55,286 bases of DNA, taken from Desulfuromonadales bacterium (GTDB lineage: Bacteria; Desulfobacterota; Desulfuromonadia; Desulfuromonadales; BM103). The stretch is from positions 1 through 55,286 of the forward strand of contig JAQYVY010000024.1 in the NCBI GenBank assembly GCA_030145195.1, written 5' to 3'. The position numbers were made by a program, and so were the translations under genes. The notes under the pieces are model-generated. The model saw only the letters and a list, made by a program, of their open reading frames with translations. It did not search any database and was not told the DNA's origin. Positions 4,041 through 52,726 of the stretch are shown in pieces; positions within the stretch are counted from its first letter, which is position 1, and each line of letters starts with the position of its first letter.

Positions 4041-6023
4041 CTACTTAAACATTCGCTTAAACAGCCCTTTCTTCTGCGCTTCTTTTTGTTCCTGCAAGGT
4101 CCGCAGCCCTTTGCGAGCCATCATCTGGTGAGCATCAAGCTTCAGAGCCTTGTTAAACTCTGCTTCGGCTATAGAGGTCTGCCCTGATTCCAGCAGCATC
4201 CAACCTTTGTACGCAAAGGCCTGCGGAGTGCGCTCCAGAGTGACTGATTTGTTGATCATCTGGCGAGCTTTATTCTGCATGGCCTGGCTGTCAGCGTATT
4301 TAGGGTTGCGATAAATAGCCCAGGCCAAAGCAGCCAGATAGTCGCCGCTGTTTGAATCAAAATTAACCGCTTCCTGCAGCGCTTTTTCAGCGTTGTCCCA
4401 TTCCTCCATTTCGAGAAAGACCTTACCCGACTCAGCTTGGACTTCTGCCTGAAACCGATCATCACCCTTGTGCCCAAGGCCGACCTTGTCGGAACCGAGC
4501 ATTTCGTCGTAACGCTCTTTTTTGACCACATCGGAGAGGGTATCGTAAGCTGTGGCAACCGTCGATAGAATCTGCTCGACCAAGACGGCTTCTTCGCCGC
4601 CGAGTTGCATCAGCACTTCGGGGCCAAATTTACGGGTGATCGCAAAGTAGCGCTCTTTGAGCAACTCAATGGAAAACTTGGCGGGTTTGATGCCAAAGAC
4701 TTCGTAATGATCCTTCTTTTCCAAGCTCTTGGCAATCAGACGAACCTCCAGGCCAAGTTCGTCCTCCTGAGCTAGCGGAGACAGGGATACTGGAGCAGGG
4801 GATGGTTCGGGCTTCGGGGGCTCTGGAACGGCACGTTGCGTCTCTTCTTCGACCAGGTCGGAGAAACTTTCCAGGATTTCGTCAATTTCAACCGCGACGT
4901 CCTCCTCAACAGCGTTGAATAGTGTCCGAACCGGCAGATCCCCCGGTACGGCCGAGGGGGCCGGTTGAGCAGCAAACCGGACCATATTGAGGCTGGTCAG
5001 GGTGAACAGGATCGGGCCAGGGTTTGATGTTTCAGCAACCAGCTCCGCCAGACGGTGCTGACCGTCGAGACGCTGGACAAAGCGTTTTTCCACTTCGTTA
5101 AGACGCAGAAAATTGATGTGCCGATAATAGTCTTGGTCAAGAAAAACAAACTTGTCATTAAAGGTTTTTAGCAGTTGTGCACCAGACTGCTCGGCATATT
5201 TATGAAAGCCTTCATAAAAGAGTTGAGGCACGTTCAAGGTAATCAGTTGCAATAGTTCGGGTGATGGCATGGCCTTCCAGACAGCAGAGGAGGAACCACT
5301 GCCAAAAGCATAGACCAGCTCCTGATCAAGATAATCCAGCTCCGCCTGTAACAGGTCATTGTATTGAAGACAACCGATCTGTACCAACACATCATGCCGA
5401 AAGGCTGCACCCGTTGCGAAGTAAGAGTATTCATCGTTTGTAATCTGTCTGCGGTTGCAGAGAAAATCGCCGAAATCACGGCTTTTAAAGCCGGGTCTTA
5501 GCGCGACTGGCGCTCCGTTAATAAAAGTCAACAACCGTACCGTATCTGGATAAGTCAGGGTCAGTTGTCCGGAAAAACGTTTTAAAAAAGCCGTCCGAAG
5601 ATGCTGTGCAAAGGGGCGAGCGTCAGCGATAGGTATTGGTGTCGCCGCCACAGTAGTGGACAATTCCTGACGAATAGCAGCCATAAGTTCAGCCGCTTTG
5701 AACGGTTTTTCCAGATAATGTCCAACGCCGAGTGCCTTGGCGGCAGAGTGAAACTTTTCCCCTCTGTAGGCCCCGGTGATAATGATCACTGGCAGCTTGG
5801 CCGTACGTGGGCTCCGGCGCAGCTTTTTGAGCAGCTCGATACCGTGCAGGCCGGGCAATTTGAGGTCGAGTAGCAACAGGTCTGGCGGTGAGGCAGAAAT
5901 CGACTTTAACGCAGCAATACCATCGCCCTGCTGTTCGACTTCAAGCCCCTGCCGCTTAAGCAGTTCGGCGATCGTCGCAGCCAGATGCTGATTGTCTTCG
6001 GTCAGCAGGATGCGTTTAGCCAT
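4041..6023 (-). CDS. Receiver-PATAN/DUF4388-like-degenerate J domain-TPR protein
   Basis: A 660-residue multidomain protein. Residues 1-120 are a response-regulator receiver with phospho-acceptor Asp53 (LLLDLKLPG), acidic E9/D10 and the Lys in LEKPF. Residues about 140-350 resemble the PATAN/DUF4388 region found in gliding and type IV pilus signalling regulators (FSGQLTLTY, then INGAPVALRPG). Then comes a Pro/Glu-rich linker (about 370-415), a J-domain-like segment (KKDHYEVFGI to KERYDEML) and tetratricopeptide-like helices to the C-terminus. The J-like part lacks the HPD tripeptide needed to stimulate DnaK (KFG at that place), so it is probably structural. It follows mltG by 32 bp. A signalling scaffold is the likely role. 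No DNA-binding domain is visible. Confidence 0.75.
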   Translation of the reverse strand: MAKRILLTEDNQHLAATIAELLKRQGLEVEQQGDGIAALKSISASPPDLLLLDLKLPGLHGIELLKKLRRSPRTAKLPVIIITGAYRGEKFHSAAKALGVGHYLEKPFKAAELMAAIRQELSTTVAATPIPIADARPFAQHLRTAFLKRFSGQLTLTYPDTVRLLTFINGAPVALRPGFKSRDFGDFLCNRRQITNDEYSYFATGAAFRHDVLVQIGCLQYNDLLQAELDYLDQELVYAFGSGSSSAVWKAMPSPELLQLITLNVPQLFYEGFHKYAEQSGAQLLKTFNDKFVFLDQDYYRHINFLRLNEVEKRFVQRLDGQHRLAELVAETSNPGPILFTLTSLNMVRFAAQPAPSAVPGDLPVRTLFNAVEEDVAVEIDEILESFSDLVEEETQRAVPEPPKPEPSPAPVSLSPLAQEDELGLEVRLIAKSLEKKDHYEVFGIKPAKFSIELLKERYFAITRKFGPEVLMQLGGEEAVLVEQILSTVATAYDTLSDVVKKERYDEMLGSDKVGLGHKGDDRFQAEVQAESGKVFLEMEEWDNAEKALQEAVNFDSNSGDYLAALAWAIYRNPKYADSQAMQNKARQMINKSVTLERTPQAFAYKGWMLLESGQTSIAEAEFNKALKLDAHQMMARKGLRTLQEQKEAQKKGLFKRMFK

Positions 6024-10675: not shown

Positions 10676-13276
10676 TCACCGACTATCGTCCCAGTAGCAG
10701 GCCAGCTGTTGAGTGACAACATCCGCCATCAGCATCAAATTTTGCCGGGAGACGTCGAGGACTTTGACCGTTGGCTTAAAACGGCTACTGCTGGGCATCA
10801 TACCCTCGAGAGCATTGCTGTGCTGGCAAATCCAGTTACTATTGAGCGTACAAGGGAAGGCCTCGGGGAAAAGGGCCAAGTAGAAGATATCCGCCTCGAC
10901 GAGATCCTGGAAGAAGTGTGATCCGAATGAAAGCTCAGGCATCAAACCGCCCTCAGTGAAGGCGACTTCGCCGATGGCCGCCATATTGTTGATCTCAGAG
11001 AATTTCACCGGCACCCCAAGGGAAGGTGTCGACGTTCCCCAGCGGCCAGGCCCGAGCAGAAGAGTCGGCTGGTCCTCTCGTGAGCTGATCCGCTTATTCA
11101 GTCGGCCAATCAGGCGTGCAACCTCATGCTTATCGGAGATTGACAGTTGGGCGTATTGTCTCGGGTCGATCCAGATCACCCTCTTTATCGGCAAGGCCGT
11201 GTTGCCCCCCATGAAGCCTCCTTCCGCACTGAAGAAGATTTTATCCTCAGGAATCTTCTCGGGGAAGCTGATTCGTTTTTTAAGCCCCTTGGTCTGCAAA
11301 GGTCGACACTGCAACAGGTTGAGCTTGATACTGTTGTCTGCGGCCGTATTGACAGTAAACTCTATGTCGACGGGATACTGATAGGCCGTCTCGATAGCCT
11401 TAAGCAGGTCATGCATCATCTTCGGGAAAACCGTCCGGGTCAGGAGATGTTCAAATGTTAACAACCAGAGCTGCTGCGGGGGTCGACCCCGCTCTCGCAG
11501 TCGGTCTATGGCCTCGCGGTCGAGTTCACCATATTGCTCCAGATTGAGATTGATGCCCTCACGGATCACGCGGCTCAACGGAAGCGACTGCAGGCTGTTG
11601 TCAGTAACGTTGATCAGGTCGATATCCTTCTGTGAAAAACGGCGGAGATCTTCATGTCCCTTCAATGGCAGCTTCATCGGTTCATCGAGAGCAACGATCC
11701 GCGGATAATCTCCCTCTACGCGGTCAACCGCCCTGGTGCCAAGGCCAAGGACTAAGCGCAACATACCGGCCTTCGGATCCATATGCTTGTCCCAGACAAA
11801 CGTATTGTACGAAATGCCGACTCCCGCCAACTCAGGAAAGTAGTACTGCTTATGGTAGGAGCCAGAAACCCGCTGGATCAATAACCCCATCTGTTCTACA
11901 TGCCGGTCAAGCCCCCGCTGCTTGCGGTAGGTCAGGGCATCTTCGCTCATGGTACTGGCGAAGATCTTGCGCACGGCCTCTTCAAGCTCGGCGTAGCGCT
12001 CCTCCGGTGAGCCTTGGTTGGCGCAGAAGAAACTGTCGTACTTGCCAGCGAAGGCGTTGCCGAAGCCATCCTCCAGTAGCGAACTCGAGCGGACGATGAT
12101 CGGATACTGTCCGTAATAATCGAGCATACGCTGGAGTTCTTCGCTCAACGTTTCAGGGAAAGCCCCCGTGAGCATCTTTTTCTGAAGTTCAGCTCCGGCC
12201 GAAAAGTACCCCTCGGGGGTTTTCTGAGCCGCGTAAAGCTCCCACCAACCGTTATTGACGATGTAAGAATAATAGACATTCGAACCAACGAAGAAGGAAT
12301 CATGCTGTTCGAGGAGATTGCTCCAGTCGAAGTCTGCCTGCGCTTCCAGGATACGTCGGGCCAGCAGCATGCCGACGGCCTTGCCGCCGATAAAGCCGGT
12401 GCCAATCATCCGGTTCTTGATTCCCAGCAAGTCCTCAAGGGAGAAGTAGCACCATGCAAGGTCAAGAATTTTGCCTTCAAGTCCGATCAGGTGACGGCAG
12501 AGGTGTTGGACCATGAGTTGCTTCTCTTCCGCTGACGCCTCCGATGTATTGAGTTCTTCGGCTTGCAGGAAAAGACGCTGCCAGTGATCCAACTGGCGAT
12601 TGCCGGTCACAGCGTCATGGCGAAGAACGTTTGCCAGCAGCTCAGTCGCCTCGATGCTGTTGGCCAGAGGGATGAAAGTCTCCCCTCGCTGTTGGTGCGG
12701 CAGAAACATGGTCGGCGAGTGGCGCTCCCAAACCTTGATCGGGTGCATGAAATGATCTTCACCACGGCGGTGAAGATCAAGTAGGACTTGGGTGGTCTCG
12801 CGAATGAGTGTAATCGTTTTGTGTGCATGTCGTTCACGCAACAGCGCGAAGTAAGCTACGGTATCAAGGCGGAACAGGTAGGGGCAGGTCACGTGGAAAA
12901 AGTTGGCAATCATGTGATCGGTCGCCCACGCTGAAAGCAGGTCGGAAAGGCAGTCGAACACATAGAAAACGCCAACGCCCTTTTCTGTGGCGATGGCGTG
13001 GATGGCGCAGGCAAAGGTTTCAAACCCCTCGCTCGGGTCGAGTTCATAGGTCTCAACTGACAGCTCCGGGTCGATCAGCGCCGGGTGCTGGCCGAATCGA
13101 AAGTAGACGACCTGCCGACCTGCCGCAAGAGCCTCTCTGACATAAGGCCCGACGAAGTCACGGTAGTCATCGATAGAATCAACCTTCCAAACAACATTAT
13201 CCCCGAGTCGCAAGCCATCTAGAATTTCATCAAGACCCTTGAATCCAGTTGACACCCATCGGTTCTCTTCTGTCAT
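10676..13276 (-). CDS. PEP/pyruvate-binding (PPDK_N-like) protein with degenerate KaiC-like N-terminus
   Basis: An 866-residue protein. Residues about 5-200 look like a KaiC/RadA-type RecA fold (STGFKGLDEILDGLRLGD at the start), but where Walker A should be the sequence reads KVDSIDDYRDF, with no GKT/S, so ATP binding there is unlikely. The middle and C-terminal parts carry a pyruvate-phosphate-dikinase N-terminal type ATP-grasp domain (TGFIGGKAVGM, then YPIIVRSSSLLEDGFGNAFAGKYDSFF). The phospho-histidine swivelling domain and TIM-barrel domain of full PEP synthase/PPDK are not recognisable. So it is not a complete PpsA. Substrate and product are unknown. The ATG at 13276 has an AAGGG site. 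A TTG at 13306 is the alternative. A terminator separates it from gdhA upstream. Confidence 0.75.
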   Translation of the reverse strand: MTEENRWVSTGFKGLDEILDGLRLGDNVVWKVDSIDDYRDFVGPYVREALAAGRQVVYFRFGQHPALIDPELSVETYELDPSEGFETFACAIHAIATEKGVGVFYVFDCLSDLLSAWATDHMIANFFHVTCPYLFRLDTVAYFALLRERHAHKTITLIRETTQVLLDLHRRGEDHFMHPIKVWERHSPTMFLPHQQRGETFIPLANSIEATELLANVLRHDAVTGNRQLDHWQRLFLQAEELNTSEASAEEKQLMVQHLCRHLIGLEGKILDLAWCYFSLEDLLGIKNRMIGTGFIGGKAVGMLLARRILEAQADFDWSNLLEQHDSFFVGSNVYYSYIVNNGWWELYAAQKTPEGYFSAGAELQKKMLTGAFPETLSEELQRMLDYYGQYPIIVRSSSLLEDGFGNAFAGKYDSFFCANQGSPEERYAELEEAVRKIFASTMSEDALTYRKQRGLDRHVEQMGLLIQRVSGSYHKQYYFPELAGVGISYNTFVWDKHMDPKAGMLRLVLGLGTRAVDRVEGDYPRIVALDEPMKLPLKGHEDLRRFSQKDIDLINVTDNSLQSLPLSRVIREGINLNLEQYGELDREAIDRLRERGRPPQQLWLLTFEHLLTRTVFPKMMHDLLKAIETAYQYPVDIEFTVNTAADNSIKLNLLQCRPLQTKGLKKRISFPEKIPEDKIFFSAEGGFMGGNTALPIKRVIWIDPRQYAQLSISDKHEVARLIGRLNKRISSREDQPTLLLGPGRWGTSTPSLGVPVKFSEINNMAAIGEVAFTEGGLMPELSFGSHFFQDLVEADIFYLALFPEAFPCTLNSNWICQHSNALEGMMPSSSRFKPTVKVLDVSRQNLMLMADVVTQQLACYWDDSR

Positions 13277-13308
13277 CGGTCTACCCTTCAATGTTCTCTG
13301 TTGCAATC

Positions 13309-13340
13309 AAAAAAAAGGCCGGGGAACACTGTCCCCGGCC
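13309..13340 (-). terminator. Intrinsic terminator of gdhA
   Basis: GGCCGGGGA/TCCCCGGCC stem (13317-13325 with 13332-13340), followed on the minus strand by eight T. Confidence 0.85.
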
Positions 13341-13359
13341 TGGTGTGACAGTTTGACGA

Positions 13360-14778
<1,419 letters not shown>

Positions 14779-16652: not shown

Positions 16653-16797
16653 AGCATTAGATAATGGGGGCAAGTCTGCTGTTGGCTTGTGTTGGCGTGA
16701 CGGGTTGTTTAATTTATTCTGAAAGAGGGTTCAATTCCGCGTAGCTTGCTGCGGGGTCGTTCATTTGCATTTGTTGTTTATTTTAAGGAGGGGTGTC

Positions 16798-17679
16798 ATG
16801 TTGATTGTTGTCCGAGGGGGGCGACCCACGTCGCCTGGTGTAGGTCTGCTTAAAATTGTTTCGTTGCTGTGCTGCCTGTTAGCGTTGCTGGCAGTACGTG
16901 CCATTGCCACCGAGCTGATGTTGCCACAGGTCTACTCCGAGCAGGTGGACGTCTCCGGTTGGTTGATGAGCGAAAAACTCGACGGAGTACGCGGTTACTG
17001 GGACGGTAAACAGCTGCTGTCGAAGAACGGCAACCGCTTTTATCCTCCGCCGACATTTGTTCGTGACCTGCCACCGTTTCCCCTGGAAGGCGAGCTCTGG
17101 GGAGGCCGCGGTACTTTTGAGCAGACAGCCTCAATCGTCAAACAGCAACAGCCTCACGATGGTTGGCTGCAGCTCAAGTTTGCTATCTTTGATGTACCCC
17201 AAGAACCCGGTGGTTTTACGATGCGGCTAAACAGGCTAAATGACTGGTTTGCTGCCCATCCCTCCACCTATGCTCTCGTCATCGAGCAGATCACGGTTCG
17301 GGATCCGTTGCATTTACAACAGGAATTACAAAGAATTGAAGCTCTCGGTGGTGAAGGGTTGATCGTCCGTCGGCCGGAAGCCGTCTACGCTGCCGGGCGC
17401 AGCCCTGAAATCCTCAAAGTGAAAAATCACCAGGACGCCGAAGCGACGGTGCTAGCGCACCTGCCTGGTAAAGGACGAAACGAGGGCAAGCTTGGCGCCT
17501 TGCTGGTGGCGCTTGCCGATGGTACGCAATTCAAAATAGGCACGGGGTTCAGTGATGCCGAACGGCAATCGCCCCCGCCGGTCGGCGCTGTTGTGACCTT
17601 CAAATTCTACAGCACATACCAATCTGGAATCCCAAAATTCCCGTCTTTCATGCGCATTCGGCAGGACCTGGGTATCTAG
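16798..17679 (+). CDS. Secreted ATP-dependent DNA ligase, LigE type
   Basis: 293 residues. A signal peptide (basic start, hydrophobic LLKIVSLLCCLLALLAV, then a likely cleavage near AIA) leads to a minimal ligase: motif I EKLDGVRG with AMP-binding Lys60, motif III LKFAIFDV, motif IV EGLIVRR, motif V LKVKNHQDAEATV, and a C-terminal OB-fold of about 80 residues. There is no extra DNA-binding domain, as in the periplasmic LigE group. It seals nicks using ATP. Where ATP would come from outside the cytoplasm is an open question for the whole group. The ATG at 16798 follows AAGGAGGGG. It lies downstream of the toxin gene and faces comM, whose product helps natural transformation. Confidence 0.85.
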   Translation: MLIVVRGGRPTSPGVGLLKIVSLLCCLLALLAVRAIATELMLPQVYSEQVDVSGWLMSEKLDGVRGYWDGKQLLSKNGNRFYPPPTFVRDLPPFPLEGELWGGRGTFEQTASIVKQQQPHDGWLQLKFAIFDVPQEPGGFTMRLNRLNDWFAAHPSTYALVIEQITVRDPLHLQQELQRIEALGGEGLIVRRPEAVYAAGRSPEILKVKNHQDAEATVLAHLPGKGRNEGKLGALLVALADGTQFKIGTGFSDAERQSPPPVGAVVTFKFYSTYQSGIPKFPSFMRIRQDLGI

Positions 17680-33402: not shown

Positions 33403-34326
33403 TTAACACCCCGATTTTCGCCAGGGCGGCAAGCCCAGTTCTTGCTGCAGTTTCAGCACGGCCAGCTCCTTGGCCTTGGCCTCAATGTCAATGGTGGCGT
33501 TGAGCGACAGCCATTCTGTTGGAAAATCTTCGAGTGCAATAAAATCAGCATGTGGTCTCGGTTTCCCTTGCCAGCCGTATTTTGGTGACGAAAGATGCAA
33601 GAGGGGTTCACGGCCAACTTTTCGCCACACTTCCAGGCAGGCATCGGTCGCTTCTGCGATTGTCAGGCCATCGGGATTGCAGCGATGGTGATGGACATCG
33701 TAGACCAAAGGGATCGAGAGCTGCTCGCAGACCGGTAAAAGATCACTGACCGTGTAACTGTGATCATCGTTTTCCAAGGTCAGGCGACTGCGGATCGGCT
33801 CGGGTAGTTTAGAAATTTGCGCCACCAGTCTTTGCAGCGCGCTAGGTTTGTCGCCATAGACTCCGCCGCCATGAATGTTAATCACATCGGCGCCGATTAA
33901 ATCGGCCAGCATCGTCTGGTAGTTGAGCTCCTGAAGAGAAGCCGCGGTCACTTCCGCGCGAGGGCTGGAGAGGAGTGTGAACTGATCAGGGTGAAAGCTG
34001 AGTCGGACGGAATATTTTTCTTTAAGTGTTTTGACCGAGGCCAGGGTTGCTGTGATCTCTTCGTCACCGGGGAGCTCTGCCAAGCGATATCCGACCTCAG
34101 GGTGGGTATATAATGGAAGCAACGGTGAGGAGACGCGGAAAGCGCCAATGCCAAGCTTATGGACTTCCTCGACAGCGGTCGCCAATGAGCGGGCATTGTC
34201 AAGGCAGAGTTCACCAAGGCGTGCCAGTTGCCCCGGGCGATCAAGCTTCTTGAGAACCTTGGCGGTTGCACTTCGGAAACGGATGGGAGATTGATTGAAC
34301 AGGCAACAGAGGCCTAGGCGCAACAT
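33403..34326 (-). CDS. uvsE: UV damage endonuclease UvsE/UVDE
   Basis: 307 residues with the UVDE TIM-barrel pattern: LRLGLCCLF at the N-terminus, RVSSPLLPLYTHPEVGY, RLSFHPDQFTLLSSP, INIHGGGVYGDK, RLTLENDDHSYT, VYDVHHHRCNP and HLSSPKYGW. These hold the His/Glu/Asp metal ligands. The enzyme nicks DNA 5' of UV photoproducts, starting alternative excision repair. The ATG at 34326 has an AAGGGA site. Length is normal. Confidence 0.93.
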   Translation of the reverse strand: MLRLGLCCLFNQSPIRFRSATAKVLKKLDRPGQLARLGELCLDNARSLATAVEEVHKLGIGAFRVSSPLLPLYTHPEVGYRLAELPGDEEITATLASVKTLKEKYSVRLSFHPDQFTLLSSPRAEVTAASLQELNYQTMLADLIGADVINIHGGGVYGDKPSALQRLVAQISKLPEPIRSRLTLENDDHSYTVSDLLPVCEQLSIPLVYDVHHHRCNPDGLTIAEATDACLEVWRKVGREPLLHLSSPKYGWQGKPRPHADFIALEDFPTEWLSLNATIDIEAKAKELAVLKLQQELGLPPWRKSGC

Positions 34327-34503
34327 CGTGAGTCCCTTAGAACCGATTTGAGTTCGGCGTTTAGCAAGTTTATAATTTGTCTTGTGATAAGCTGTTTACC
34401 AGTTTAACAAAACTCCACTTTTATTGTCAGAGCTCTTTGGGGAAATTTCTCCTTCTGACAGAGTCATCATTGGGAATACGCTAGTATGAGCACGGGAAAA
34501 GGT

Positions 34504-36003
34504 ATGAAATCAATCTTTGTCGCTGGAGCAACAGGTTATATTGGTGCCCGGCTTGTGCCCCTTCTACTCGATGCTGGTTATCATGTTCGAGCGCTTGCCC
34601 GTGCTCCGGAAAAATTAAGAAATCGCCCCTGGGCAAAGCATTCGAATCTGGAAATCGTCAAGGGCGATGTTCTTGACCAGAGCTCGCTGCAGCAGGCCCT
34701 CAGTCAATGCAGTGCCGCTTATTACCTGGTGCACTCGATGAATCCGGATGTTGGCGATTTTGCCGCCACTGATCGTCAAGCCGCACGTAATATGGCGGAT
34801 GCCGCCGCAGCGGAAAATTTGCAACAGATTGTTTATTTGAGTGGTTTAGGTGACGAACAGGGCCCGCTCAGTCACCATTTGCAGTCAAGAACCGAAGTCG
34901 GCTCGATTTTGCGTCGGGGGCCTGTACCTGTGACCATTTTGCGTGCAGCCATGATCATTGGCTCTGGGAGCGCCTCTTTTGAAATCTTGCGTTACCTGGT
35001 GGATCGTCTGCCGGTGATGATCACACCGCGCTGGGTTGACACTCCCTGTCAGCCGATCGGGGTCAGGAATGTTTTGCACTATTTGGTCGGTTGCATTGAG
35101 GAGCCGAAAACCATTGGCGGCACCTTTGATATCGGCCAACCTGAGGTCACCAACTATCGCGCGCTTATGGAGACCTATGCCGAAGAAGCTGGCTTGCCGC
35201 GCCGATGGATTCTGCCCGTTCCGGTCCTGACACCACGGCTCAGCTCCTATTGGATTCACCTGGTGACTCCAGTTCCGGCTTCGATTGCCCGGCCCTTGGC
35301 CGAGGGCTTAAGCAACCCGGTGGTTTGCCAGGAAAACCGGATTGTTGATCTCTTACCGCAAGAGCTTTTCGATGCCCGCAAGGCCATTCGTCTAGCGCTG
35401 GATCGAATCAAGCAACAACAGGTAGAAACCTCCTGGATTGATTCGGGAGAAATCAATCCTGCCGAGTGGAGCGTCCCGGGAGACCCCTGCTGGGCAGGCG
35501 GGAGCCTCTATGATGATTCGAGAAGGATTATTCTGGATGCGCCCCCTGAAGAGATTTGGCCCGCTGTCAGTTCGATCGGTGGTGAAACCGGCTACTACTA
35601 CGCTGACTGGCTTTGGCGTCTTCGGGGTGTTCTGGATCGTCTCGGTGGCGGAGTTGGTTTAAGCCGGGGACGACGCCACCCCACGGAAATCTACCCCGGA
35701 GATGCCATTGATTTCTGGCGGGTGATTGACGTGCAAAAGCCTGACCACCTGTTGCTTACCGCTGAAATGAAGTTGCCTGGGGAAGCGGTGCTGTCTTTCC
35801 GGCTGAAGCGGGTGGAAGGCGGCCGGACAGAGCTCCAGCAGATTGCCCGTTTCCTGCCACGGGGCCTGTTCGGGATCCTCTACTGGTATACGGTCATGCC
35901 CTTTCATCATTATGTCTTTAAAGGGATGCTAAATGGCCTGGCCAAGGCCTCCGGGAAAGCTGTCCTGCGCGGTCCGGAACGATTCAAGCCAGATTCTGAT
36001 TAA
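34504..36003 (+). CDS. NAD(P)-binding SDR-like protein fused to DUF2867/SRPBCC domain
   Basis: About 499 residues. The N-terminal half is an atypical short-chain dehydrogenase of the YbjT/NmrA kind (VAGATGYIGARL Rossmann motif, VKGDVLD, then VYLSGLG in place of a full YxxxK site). From about residue 310 a DUF2867-type SRPBCC domain follows (GSLYDDSRRIILDAPPEEIW, then WWRL-like DWLWRLRGVLDRLGGG and AEMKLPGEAVLSF). This two-domain arrangement is known in proteobacteria, and the substrate is not. Start: the ATG at 34504 gives the usual MKSIFVAGATG opening. The one at 34486 is an alternative. Confidence 0.8.
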   Translation: MKSIFVAGATGYIGARLVPLLLDAGYHVRALARAPEKLRNRPWAKHSNLEIVKGDVLDQSSLQQALSQCSAAYYLVHSMNPDVGDFAATDRQAARNMADAAAAENLQQIVYLSGLGDEQGPLSHHLQSRTEVGSILRRGPVPVTILRAAMIIGSGSASFEILRYLVDRLPVMITPRWVDTPCQPIGVRNVLHYLVGCIEEPKTIGGTFDIGQPEVTNYRALMETYAEEAGLPRRWILPVPVLTPRLSSYWIHLVTPVPASIARPLAEGLSNPVVCQENRIVDLLPQELFDARKAIRLALDRIKQQQVETSWIDSGEINPAEWSVPGDPCWAGGSLYDDSRRIILDAPPEEIWPAVSSIGGETGYYYADWLWRLRGVLDRLGGGVGLSRGRRHPTEIYPGDAIDFWRVIDVQKPDHLLLTAEMKLPGEAVLSFRLKRVEGGRTELQQIARFLPRGLFGILYWYTVMPFHHYVFKGMLNGLAKASGKAVLRGPERFKPDSD

Positions 36004-50335: not shown

Positions 50336-52726
50336 TCATCGATCCAAATCAGCCAAAATAAAGTCAATCGCGCCCAATACCATAATCAAATCCGCAACCG
50401 CCCAGCCCTTGGTGATTTTCGGGAAGACCTGCATATGGGCAAAGCTCGGGGTTCGAATGCGCAGCCGGTAGGGTGTGTTGTCGCCATCGCTGACCACATA
50501 GTAACCGCACTCACCCTTGCTCGACTCAATCCCGCGGTAGCACTCGCCGCGAGGTGGGGCCATGCCGCGGGTCACATTCATGAAATGATGGATCAGGCTT
50601 TCAATGTCCTTCTTACCCGCATTCCGCTCTGGATAGGCGTAACGAAAATCACTGGTCACGTAAGGACCGTCAGGCATATCAGCGGCGGCCTGCTTAACGA
50701 TGCGCAAGCTCTGGCGCATTTCGTTGAGTCGCACCAGATAACGGGCGAAACTGCAGCCGCCCGTCTCGGTCGGGATGTCGAAATCAAACCGCTCATAACC
50801 GGAATAAGGCATCTTCTTACGCAAATCCCAGTCAATGCCGCAGGCCCGTAGGTTAGCTCCAGACATCCCCCAGTCGATCGCCTCGTCGAGAGTGGTCACG
50901 CCGATCCCCTCAGTCCGCATGCGGAAGATTGGTCCGTCGGTCAGCATCTTGTCGAGTTCATCAATACGCTCGGCAAAATCGCGGGTAAAAATATCGACCG
51001 TGGTCTTCCAGCCATCAGGCAAATCCATGGGCAAGCCACCGATACGGAACCAGGCCGGATGCATCCGGCCACCGGTGATTTCTTCGATGATGTCAAAGAT
51101 CTTCTCGCGCGATTCGAAGGTGTAGAAGACCGGCGTCATCGCGCCGACATCATGAGCGAAGGTGCCAAGCCAGACCAGGTGATTGGAAAGACGGAACAGC
51201 TCGCAGAGCATAACCCGGATCACCTGGGCCCGCTCCGGCACTTCCACGCCGAGCATAGTTTCAAGCGGCAGCAGGTAGGCTAGATTGTTCTGTACCCCGG
51301 AGAGGTAGTCAATCCGATCAGTGTAAGGGATGAACTGGTTCCAGTGCTGGCGCTCGGCAATCTTTTCGGCGCCGCGATGATGGTAACCGAGATCGACGTC
51401 AACATCCTGGACTTCCTCACCGTTCAGTTTTGCGACCAGACGCAAGACCCCATGCGTCCCGGGATGGTGTGGCCCGAGGTTGAGCACCATGGTTTCATCG
51501 TCGACCCGTTCCATTTCCGAGCCACCGAAGAAGCTTTCGGCATCGCGCGGCACCATCTTCATGGCCGCTTCTGGAGTGAAGGGTGCCATCTCAGTGGCGC
51601 GGGAGACATGGTCCTTGCGCAGCGGGTGTCCTTCCCAATCGTGGGGCATAAGAATGCGGCGCTGGTCAGGGTGGCCCTTGAAGTTGATGCCGAACATGTC
51701 GTAGACCTCGCGCTCGTACCAGTTGGCGGTGGTCCAGACATTAGTCATGGTCGGTGCAGTCGGTTGCTCACCTTGGAGCGGCACCTTAACCCGCAGATAT
51801 CCTGGATCTTCGAAAGAAAGCAGATGGTAAACCAGCGTGAAATCGTGATCGGGACGTTGGTGGCGGGCGCGCTCGTCAATGGCGGTCAGGTCTTCCAGAC
51901 GCTGGTAACGCTTCGGTGCATTCTCCTTGAGGAAGCGGAGCAGCTCCGGAGCCGTTTCCGGATCGGTCCAGAAGGTCGGCATATCAGCGCCCTTGGCATC
52001 TTCCCGGATCCGTTCACCGAAATTTTCATGCAAGGCTTTGCGCAAATCGGGTGTCGAGGTGACAAACTCAACCCGTGGCTGTGCTGGACGCCAGATTTCG
52101 GCAACGCGGCTCCCCCAAAATTTGGGCGACTGCAGCGAGGTGCCGCGATTCGGGCTATTGCCATAACCGGGTCCGCGGGTATCACGGCTCTTGGTTACCC
52201 CGTCGACCAGTAGCGGCAGGCTGGTGCCTTCACAGCCGCCTGTCATACCGAGAACCTTGCGCGCCGGGCTCTCTTCATTGGCAATCTTCTCCTGCAACAT
52301 CAGCAGTCCTTGCAGGAAGGCTTCCGGGCGCGGCGGACAACCGGGCACGTAAACATCGACCGGCAGCACCTGATTGACACCCTGCATAACGCTGTAAACA
52401 TCGTACATGCCGCCAGAGTTGGCGCAGCTGCCCATGGCCATGACCCATTTGGGATTCGCCATCTGCTCGTAGACCCGCAACATGCTCGCCCCCATCTTCT
52501 TGAAGGGCGTGCCAGAGATGATCATCAAATCCGCTTCACGCGGCGTACTGCGCAACACCTCGGCACCAAAGCGGGCAATATCATAGCGCGGCGTCATGCT
52601 GGCCATCATCTCGACAAAGCAACATGACAGACCAAAAAACATGGGCCAGAGGCTATTCTTGCGACCCCAGTTGATGGCGTCATCAAGGGTGGTGAGGATC
52701 ACATTTGGTGGCAACTCTTCACTCAC
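50336..52726 (-). CDS. nuoBCD: NADH-quinone oxidoreductase fused subunits B, C and D
   Basis: A single 796-residue frame. Residues about 1-170 are NuoB with cluster N2 ligands C35, C36, C101 and C130. About 215-405 are NuoC ([37 protein letters not shown]). About 415-796 are NuoD ([29 protein letters not shown], ending with [12 protein letters not shown]). NuoCD is fused in E. coli, and here B is joined as well through a linker of about 45 residues (171-215). It starts at 52726, overlapping nuoA by 4 bp. The fusion fixes the ratio of the three subunits around the quinone site. Confidence 0.96.

Follow-up and report, generated by a model that had tools for sequence, protein, structure and literature searches.

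A conserved kinase-like protein with a pseudo-KaiC domain and its linkage to glutamate dehydrogenase: a possible regulatory phosphotransferase of ammonium assimilation

What is the role of a protein that joins a KaiC-like domain lacking its P-loop to an ATP-grasp domain of the pyruvate phosphate dikinase (PPDK) type, and whose gene lies next to that of glutamate dehydrogenase (GDH)? This question is raised by a locus in a 55,286-nucleotide stretch of a Desulfuromonadales bacterium (contig JAQYVY010000024.1, assembly GCA_030145195.1), hereafter called the window. The kinase-like gene is located on the minus strand at positions 10676-13276 (ATG at 13276, stop codon at 10676-10678) and encodes 866 amino acids in one intact frame, exactly where an earlier note on this DNA had placed it. 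An in-frame TTG at 13306, 30 bases upstream of the ATG, could also serve as the start, giving 876 amino acids. The GDH gene, here labelled hexameric-type, lies directly upstream on the same strand (13360-14769; Pfam ELFV_dehydrog, E 1.6e-90, and ELFV_dehydrog_N) with a gap of 83 bases, and its product is the proposed partner or target. Neither this gene nor the C-terminal domain formed by the last ~200 residues of the kinase-like protein had been noticed in the earlier note. We propose that the protein regulates ammonium assimilation as a dikinase-like phosphotransferase dedicated mainly to GDH. For the whole mechanism as written below, the chances seem to be slightly short of even. A functional link of the protein to GDH or its pathway is, by contrast, quite probable, and a regulatory role is somewhat favored. 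The narrower form, in which phospho-His787, GDH as the modified target and a shared nitrogen sensor all hold, is doubtful.

The domain anatomy of the protein, its conservation and its gene linkage are direct observations. In the Pfam scan, PPDK_N was the sole match of the window protein (PF01326; E 1.4e-47; residues 305-678 in the 876-residue numbering), and neither a phosphoenolpyruvate (PEP)-utilizers domain nor a PEP-binding barrel was reported. No NCBIfam model reached its cut-off with the window protein and the five relatives scanned. The AlphaFold2 model of the 866-residue protein, built from an alignment of 54 rows, had a mean predicted local distance difference test (pLDDT) score of 87.4 and a predicted template modelling score (pTM) of 0.85. 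From the N-terminus, an N-domain with a KaiC/RecA fold and no Walker A motif, a proposed sensor (residues 1-205, boundary approximate; 12662-13276, minus strand), is followed by a helical linker assigned by DSSP of the predicted model (residues 206-290; 12407-12661, minus strand). The ATP-grasp domain (residues ~291-665; 11282-12406, minus strand) is defined by the Pfam match, profile alignment to PEP synthases, fold match and invariance. The C-terminal domain, a candidate swivelling beta/beta/alpha domain (residues 668-866; 10679-11275, minus strand), is suggested by the pLDDT of its model and weak structural matches found with VIA-align. As the earlier note had read it, the protein carries the PPDK-type ATP-grasp signature with its conserved residues and has no PEP-binding TIM barrel: besides the missing Pfam match, only ~200 residues follow the ATP-grasp domain, and their secondary structure in the model is not that of a barrel. 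Neither a complete PEP synthase domain set nor an intact Walker A motif in the N-terminus was detected. The suggestion of an unknown acceptor, made in that note, is also supported.

The ATP-grasp domain retains the residues expected of its class. K299, R396, E639, Q656 and R658 are invariant in the 54-row alignment, with K299 as the nucleotide-binding lysine of an equally invariant IGGK motif (12380-12391, minus strand); R396 is replaced by Gly in one divergent member, L156 (L and G numbers denote loci and genomes). Structures of rifampin phosphotransferase (RPH) and PEP synthase were matched by VIA-align with Z of 22-25, and the best RPH fold match had a Z of 25.5 over 292 aligned residues with a root-mean-square deviation (rmsd) of 2.9 (PDB 5hv1, 5hv3, 5fbs). 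The hhalign probability against PEP synthases was 97.5%. RSS/E402-D403, FAG(K/Q), DIE639 and Q656-x-R658 were paired when the profile was aligned with 14 PEP synthases from related genomes. According to the part of the RPH report available, Lys22, Arg117 and Thr136 are essential in that enzyme and Glu297 is not (PMC4844700). By motif, K299, R396 and S415 are assigned as putative counterparts of Lys22, Arg117 and Thr136.

These similarities do not make the protein one of the known enzymes. Like RPH, it has a PPDK-type ATP-grasp domain, and the swivelling His domain of RPH is, as far as the same report describes it, likewise C-terminal (PMC4844700). The window protein, however, has no rifampin-binding domain, has an added pseudo-KaiC domain and is linked to GDH; at the level of sequence profiles, its C-terminal domain is not related to the canonical His domains. 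RPH identity was rejected, since the NCBIfam model RIF_Ptrans_rph gave 34 bits against a cut-off of 999 and the C-terminal domain directly follows the ATP-grasp domain. With PEP synthase and PPDK it shares the ATP-grasp residues and motifs and a following domain with a histidine at a predicted helix start. By sequence it lacks a PEP-utilizers domain, and the PEP/pyruvate barrel is missing. The lack of the barrel and of a canonical His domain ruled out identity with either enzyme. A frameshifted or decayed gene was rejected on the basis of the single intact and conserved frame. Anti-phage defence was also considered and rejected, as no family among the PADLOC models was matched at E 0.01.

The C-terminal domain is conserved. 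No Pfam domain was matched by residues 668-866, and the domain modelled alone had a pLDDT of 90.5. A GPGRWG motif at residues 742-747 (11036-11053, minus strand) is invariant in the 54 aligned sequences and present in 27 of 28 divergent members, and a G[ST]HFF motif containing His787 is found in 54/54 and 28/28, respectively. These 28 rows were left after three of 31 divergent members (L194, L208, L218), read in the wrong frame, had been dropped. In the window protein the histidine stands in SFGSH (10916-10930, minus strand; conserved in the same 54/54 and 28/28 sequences) and is a candidate phospho-acceptor. In the model, His787 is the first residue of a helix (787-794), with a short loop before it and a strand behind. 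In PEP synthase the local order is GGxTSH, helix and strand, which the surroundings of His787 resemble.

The VIA-align rows of the C-terminal domain include, at a weak Z of 4.3-5.5, the His domains of PPDK, RPH and EI-Ntr. PPDK 2r82 was matched over residues 380-508 (Z 5.5) and RPH 5fbu over residues 756-867 (Z 5.3); further PPDK rows were 5jvj, 1vbg and 1kbl. Other weak top matches were the C-terminal part of bacterial pyruvate kinase, DRTGG and the CCT apical domain; many of the top rows are presumably "swivelling beta/beta/alpha" domains. Two alignments of the whole model continued past the ATP-grasp domain (5hv3, 396 aligned, model residues 227-862; 2ols, 361 aligned, model residues 260-865 against 13-467), and others covered only or mainly that domain (267-292 aligned). 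The predicted C-terminal domain thus bears a weak resemblance to the swivelling phosphohistidine class, which we take as a lead. Because His787 is invariant, stands at a helix start and lies in a domain with this weak fold similarity, it may be the phosphate carrier. The earlier statement that the protein has no phospho-His is thus right for the canonical domain, while the domain with the invariant His787 had been overlooked.

The N-terminal sequence of the 866-residue protein is STGFKGLDEILDGLRLGDNVVWKVDS. The P-loop motif GxxxxGK[ST] is not present in the N-terminus of the window protein. Its position is occupied by GDNVVWKVDS, in which GDNVVW forms residues 25-30 (13187-13204, minus strand) and G25, D26, N27 and V28 are invariant in 54/54 aligned sequences from several phyla. 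Residues 2-219 of the model have the KaiC fold (VIA-align Z about 20-22 against KaiC entries, with a maximum of 21.7 over residues 3-203, and 18-22 when the archaeal KaiC-like ATPases are included; ~190-210 residues aligned, rmsd ~3). The earlier reading of a KaiC-like N-terminus without the Walker A lysine is therefore upheld. D108 is also invariant in the 54-row alignment, and we take it to occupy the expected position of the Walker B Asp, in a Walker-B-like strand. The fold and the STGxxGLD start are shared with KaiC and the archaeal KaiC-like RecA-fold ATPases, whereas the window protein has GDNVVWxVD in place of Walker A and its single copy of the domain is fused to ATP-grasp. BcsE of cellulose secretion was among the structural matches listed by Foldseek. 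The RecA-like domain of BcsE is non-canonical and plays a regulatory part, but the output of BcsE is different and it is not known to have an ATP-grasp domain.

The pseudo-KaiC domain also occurs outside the kinase-like proteins. It is fused to HTH_3 and Cupin_2 in separate proteins (two scanned), and all 20 such helix-turn-helix (HTH)-cupin regulators examined, taken from the phylum sample, have GDNV(V/I/L)W instead of the P-loop. Genes for flavin mononucleotide (FMN)-type glutamate synthase, GOGAT, AmtB or PII lie near 14 of these 20 loci; one further locus has only NuoE/NuoF-like genes alongside. The first five HTH-cupin loci fetched were likewise near glutamate-synthase-type genes, AmtB or PII. 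In sister kinase-like forms, on the other hand, the N-domain is replaced by other regions. Because of this sharing and replacement, the N-domain looks like a sensor, and the role of scaffold that the earlier note gave to the RecA-like part seems less likely. At L146, L147, L148, L289 and L292, the HTH-cupin pseudo-KaiC regulator lies near an FMN-type glutamate synthase and NuoE/NuoF-like genes. At such loci there may be a hitherto undescribed operon for an NADH-linked glutamate synthase that has a regulator of its own.

In the phylum, forms of ~760-930 amino acids without the pseudo-KaiC domain adjoin a different, short GDH in 10 of 14 cases, and three of the four without an adjoining short GDH lie at a contig end. 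One such form, L160, has a GAF-like start by eye. Long forms of ~1000-1500 amino acids (L153-L155, L162, L196) have the ATP-grasp domain and the C-terminal domain with GPGRWG (GQGRWG in L162) and GSHFF, and a GDH of the window type lies alongside in four of the five (L154, L155, L162 and L196, not L153). Both long forms scanned, L153 and L155, gave Response_reg and PPDK_N together with weak DUF5752 matches; by eye, L154 and L155 each contain one degenerate and one complete-looking receiver. The shorter relative L156 has no GDH alongside. Since the input modules differ while the output of ATP-grasp and C-terminal domains is constant and the GDH partner persists, a signalling enzyme would fit better than a pathway enzyme.

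The family was found in 41 of 58 genomes, that of the window included, with a C-terminal remnant in two more. At 83% identity, the closest of the named relatives comes from metagenome bins called Geobacteraceae; those called Desulfuromonadales follow with 78-80%, and the window itself probably belongs to this group. Alignment columns are on average 74% identical in 22 members of the order and 60% identical in the 54 members from several phyla; L054 and L066, with a stop codon in the matched stretch, were omitted from this alignment (A2). This conservation across genomes indicates a real gene rather than a chance frame. A scan of genome contigs gave at least 569 coding relatives, of which the best 80 were kept as loci; as the best-scoring ones, they are biased toward relatives of the window. 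The groups named among them include Desulfuromonadales, Planctomycetota, Omnitrophota, Spirochaetes, Gammaproteobacteria (Thiocapsa, Ectothiorhodospira, Marinobacter) and Clostridia-type.

Of these 80 loci, 57 have flanks of 1.5 kb or more on either side, and their neighbouring genes were counted by tblastn. GDH was found within 1 kb in 37/57 loci and anywhere in the flank in 42/57. When GOGAT, GltB-type and FMN-type glutamate synthase, AmtB, PII and GlnD were searched along with GDH, at least one nitrogen-assimilation gene was present in the fetched flanks of 51/57 loci. In the 37 loci, GDH was upstream on the same strand in 23, convergent in 11 and downstream on the same strand in three. Scored by parsimony for 32 rows of a quick 54-row maximum-likelihood tree (including L080, whose GDH is 1.5 kb away), the arrangement changes eight times between the same-strand, convergent and downstream states. 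The pairing is therefore not one frozen operon. In a second set of 40 loci, many of which were chosen because an initial, narrower view had shown no GDH and one of which (L204) repeats L073 to judge by the length of its contig, a nitrogen-assimilation gene was nearby in 33, versus 1 of 20 control stretches taken 30 kb away on the same contigs. As a separate observation, remnants of the C-terminal domain lie directly after GDH at L157 (3422-3973) and L158 (3733-4143), in G023 and G043 of one genus, where GDH was retained and the kinase-like gene apparently lost.

The family and GDH also co-occur at the level of whole genomes. In a phylum sample of 247 genomes, with the family and the GDH-like gene both called at profile E <= 1e-24, all 62 family-bearing genomes had a GDH-like gene, compared with 122/247 overall (Fisher p 2e-24, uncorrected for relatedness), and the family occurred in 0/125 genomes without one. 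Distant short forms are counted among the GDH-like hits along with the type of the window; when only the latter is counted, the figures are 44/62 and 60/247. The 62 carriers belong to 28 taxonomic families. In the class of G301 (the Marinobacter genome of L104), the full-length family was present in 5/229 genomes, all five with a GDH at E < 1e-170, while 34/229 had a GDH at E < 1e-100. GDH is adjacent in three of these carriers and on another contig in two. In the 229-genome sample, the eight GDHs most similar to that of the window include those of all five carriers.

How might such a protein work? Each catalytic and regulatory step given here, the target included, is what we infer. The pseudo-KaiC domain would bind a ligand or partner reporting nitrogen or energy status and thereby set the conformation of the protein. 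The ATP-grasp domain, assigned by homology, would bind ATP and, like PEP synthase and RPH, move its beta-phosphate to a histidine, with release of AMP and inorganic phosphate (Pi). The swivel-like C-terminal domain would hold the phosphate on His787. The phosphate would then pass to an external partner, or the C-terminal domain would dock on it, and its activity would be altered; from the gene linkage, this partner would most likely be GDH or another enzyme of the glutamate-ammonium node. An external partner is proposed because no built-in acceptor domain is present.

VadK (Rv1127c) offers the closest comparison for this scheme. In the portion of its report available, VadK is described as a PPDK reduced to the ATP-binding and His domains, which autophosphorylates at histidine and interacts with methylcitrate synthase and dehydratase, tuning flux without transcriptional control (PMC13400623). 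As there described, it resembles the window protein in combining an ATP-grasp domain with a phospho-transfer part at the C-terminus, a putative one in the window protein, and in lacking a pyruvate/PEP domain; its mode of action is like the one proposed here. It differs, in a comparison made by description only, in its 17-residue N-terminal stretch, the lack of a pseudo-KaiC domain and its methylcitrate-cycle partners. The domain set of the window protein suggests that it may use the same ATP to AMP + Pi phosphohistidine chemistry with an external acceptor and a so far unrecognised carrier domain. Response regulators of the receiver-PPDK type have been noted in Bacteroides and Heimdallarchaeota (PMC5847659). 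They resemble the long forms L153 and L155 in the fusion of a signal-input domain to a PPDK domain; the window form, however, has a pseudo-KaiC input, and the available part of that survey gives neither a function nor a GDH link.

Several facts weigh against the proposed role of the protein. Foldseek of the C-terminal domain gave nothing significant (best E 0.06, unrelated), and its best VIA-align Z of 5.7 lies within the range that the tool flags as possible background. Against the canonical phosphohistidine domain (PEP-utilizers, GGxTSH), the hhalign probability was 0.2-0.3% in both global and local mode, compared with 99% in the positive control, where two sets of canonical His domains were aligned with each other. 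VadK keeps a canonical PPDK His domain (His422, in the available part of its report), which is absent from the window protein. In the window, a strong hairpin with a T run, resembling an intrinsic terminator (13316-13341, minus strand, by sequence), parts GDH from the kinase-like gene. The expression of the two genes may be uncoupled, or may be coupled by read-through. None of the searched nitrogen genes was found in 6/57 loci of the first set (L059, L068, L074, L093, L103, L109) and in 7/40 of the second. In G374 and G505, GDH lies on another contig than the kinase-like gene. When 69 paired and 34 unpaired GDHs were compared, no residue told the two groups cleanly apart and no phosphosite could be seen, the best contrast being P374 (97% of the paired and 38% of the unpaired GDHs). 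Finally, 60 of the 122 genomes with a GDH-like gene have no member of the family, and the co-occurrence figure is uncorrected for phylogeny and has no prevalence-matched control gene.

One alternative worth considering is a metabolic enzyme. Its substrate would be a small molecule from the glutamate, 2-oxoglutarate or ammonia node, which the ATP-grasp/His unit would phosphorylate or ligate, and the N-terminal modules would serve as ordinary allosteric regulators. Most of the characterised PPDK_N relatives that we met by name (PEP synthase, RPH, PigC, RedH) act on small molecules, as does the two-component dikinase HpeHI in the part of its report available (PMC12167813), and the linkage reaches GOGAT, AmtB and PII besides GDH. 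However, neither between the ATP-grasp and C-terminal domains nor beyond them can an acceptor-binding domain be recognised. The N-terminal modules vary among sister forms, as in signalling proteins, and the pseudo-KaiC module is common to HTH regulators. VadK, as described, is itself a PPDK without a pyruvate domain that acts as a regulatory kinase (PMC13400623). We therefore consider a metabolic enzyme rather unlikely. The same linkage and the lack of a visible GDH phosphosite would also suit a partner that does not phosphorylate at all, in which the ATP-grasp domain senses ATP/ADP as an energy signal and the protein clamps GDH (or PII/GOGAT). The pseudo-KaiC domain and the lack of a canonical phospho-His domain are in line with this explanation. 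The invariance of K299, R396, E639, Q656 and R658 in 54 sequences, and of H787 in these and 28 divergent members, argues instead for catalysis over mere binding, and we regard such a clamp as distinctly unlikely.

The gene and GDH might, on the other hand, be a horizontally moved or co-regulated pair, with the protein acting on something else. The distribution over several phyla, the closeness of the GDHs of the G301-class carriers to that of the window and the loci without any searched nitrogen gene could be explained in this way. Against it stand the pairing of several architectures with two distantly related GDH types, the eight changes of arrangement and the absence of the family from all 125 genomes without a GDH-like gene; the explanation seems improbable. 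That the protein is a mis-split or degraded ordinary PEP synthase or PPDK could be suspected from PPDK_N being its sole Pfam match. Since the intact 866-residue frame is conserved at full length in several phyla, with neither a TIM barrel nor a canonical His domain, and PEP synthase-like and PPDK-like genes are present elsewhere in the genome, this is highly improbable.

A regulatory phosphotransferase linked to GDH would be of some consequence. GDH holds a central place in ammonium assimilation. No publication on a dedicated protein partner of GDH across several phyla was found; a search of the open-access literature gave nothing on the kinase-like family or its GDH link. If the mechanism is true, it would add a layer of control to nitrogen metabolism, VadK-like regulatory dikinases would be general and not a mycobacterial oddity, a dead KaiC domain would have a role as a sensor, and a large family (at least 569 coding relatives) would gain a function. 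A wider and speculative view, which we hold to be no better than doubtful, is a widespread and so far undescribed nitrogen control parallel to PII/NtrC. There, a "GDN" sensor of nitrogen or energy status would act either through the HTH-cupin regulator of glutamate-synthase operons or through a phosphotransferase that reversibly modifies GDH via a new phosphohistidine domain (GPGRWG...G[ST]HFF).

Other genes of the window were also examined. An ATP-dependent DNA-ligase-like protein with DNA_ligase_OB_2 is encoded at 16765-17679 on the plus strand; its gene was found in 15/247 genomes at E 0.001, six of them with E below 1e-60 (five other genomes), and is too rare to serve as a control for co-occurrence. 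Parts of NuoB, NuoC and NuoD are fused in one 796-amino-acid frame at 50336-52726 on the minus strand, near other complex I genes. A 660-amino-acid protein with a receiver domain and weak DnaJ and TPR matches is encoded at 4041-6023, and a UvdE-type UV endonuclease at 33403-34326, both on the minus strand. At 34486-36003 on the plus strand, a protein of 505 amino acids contains an NmrA/NAD-binding domain fused to DUF2867.

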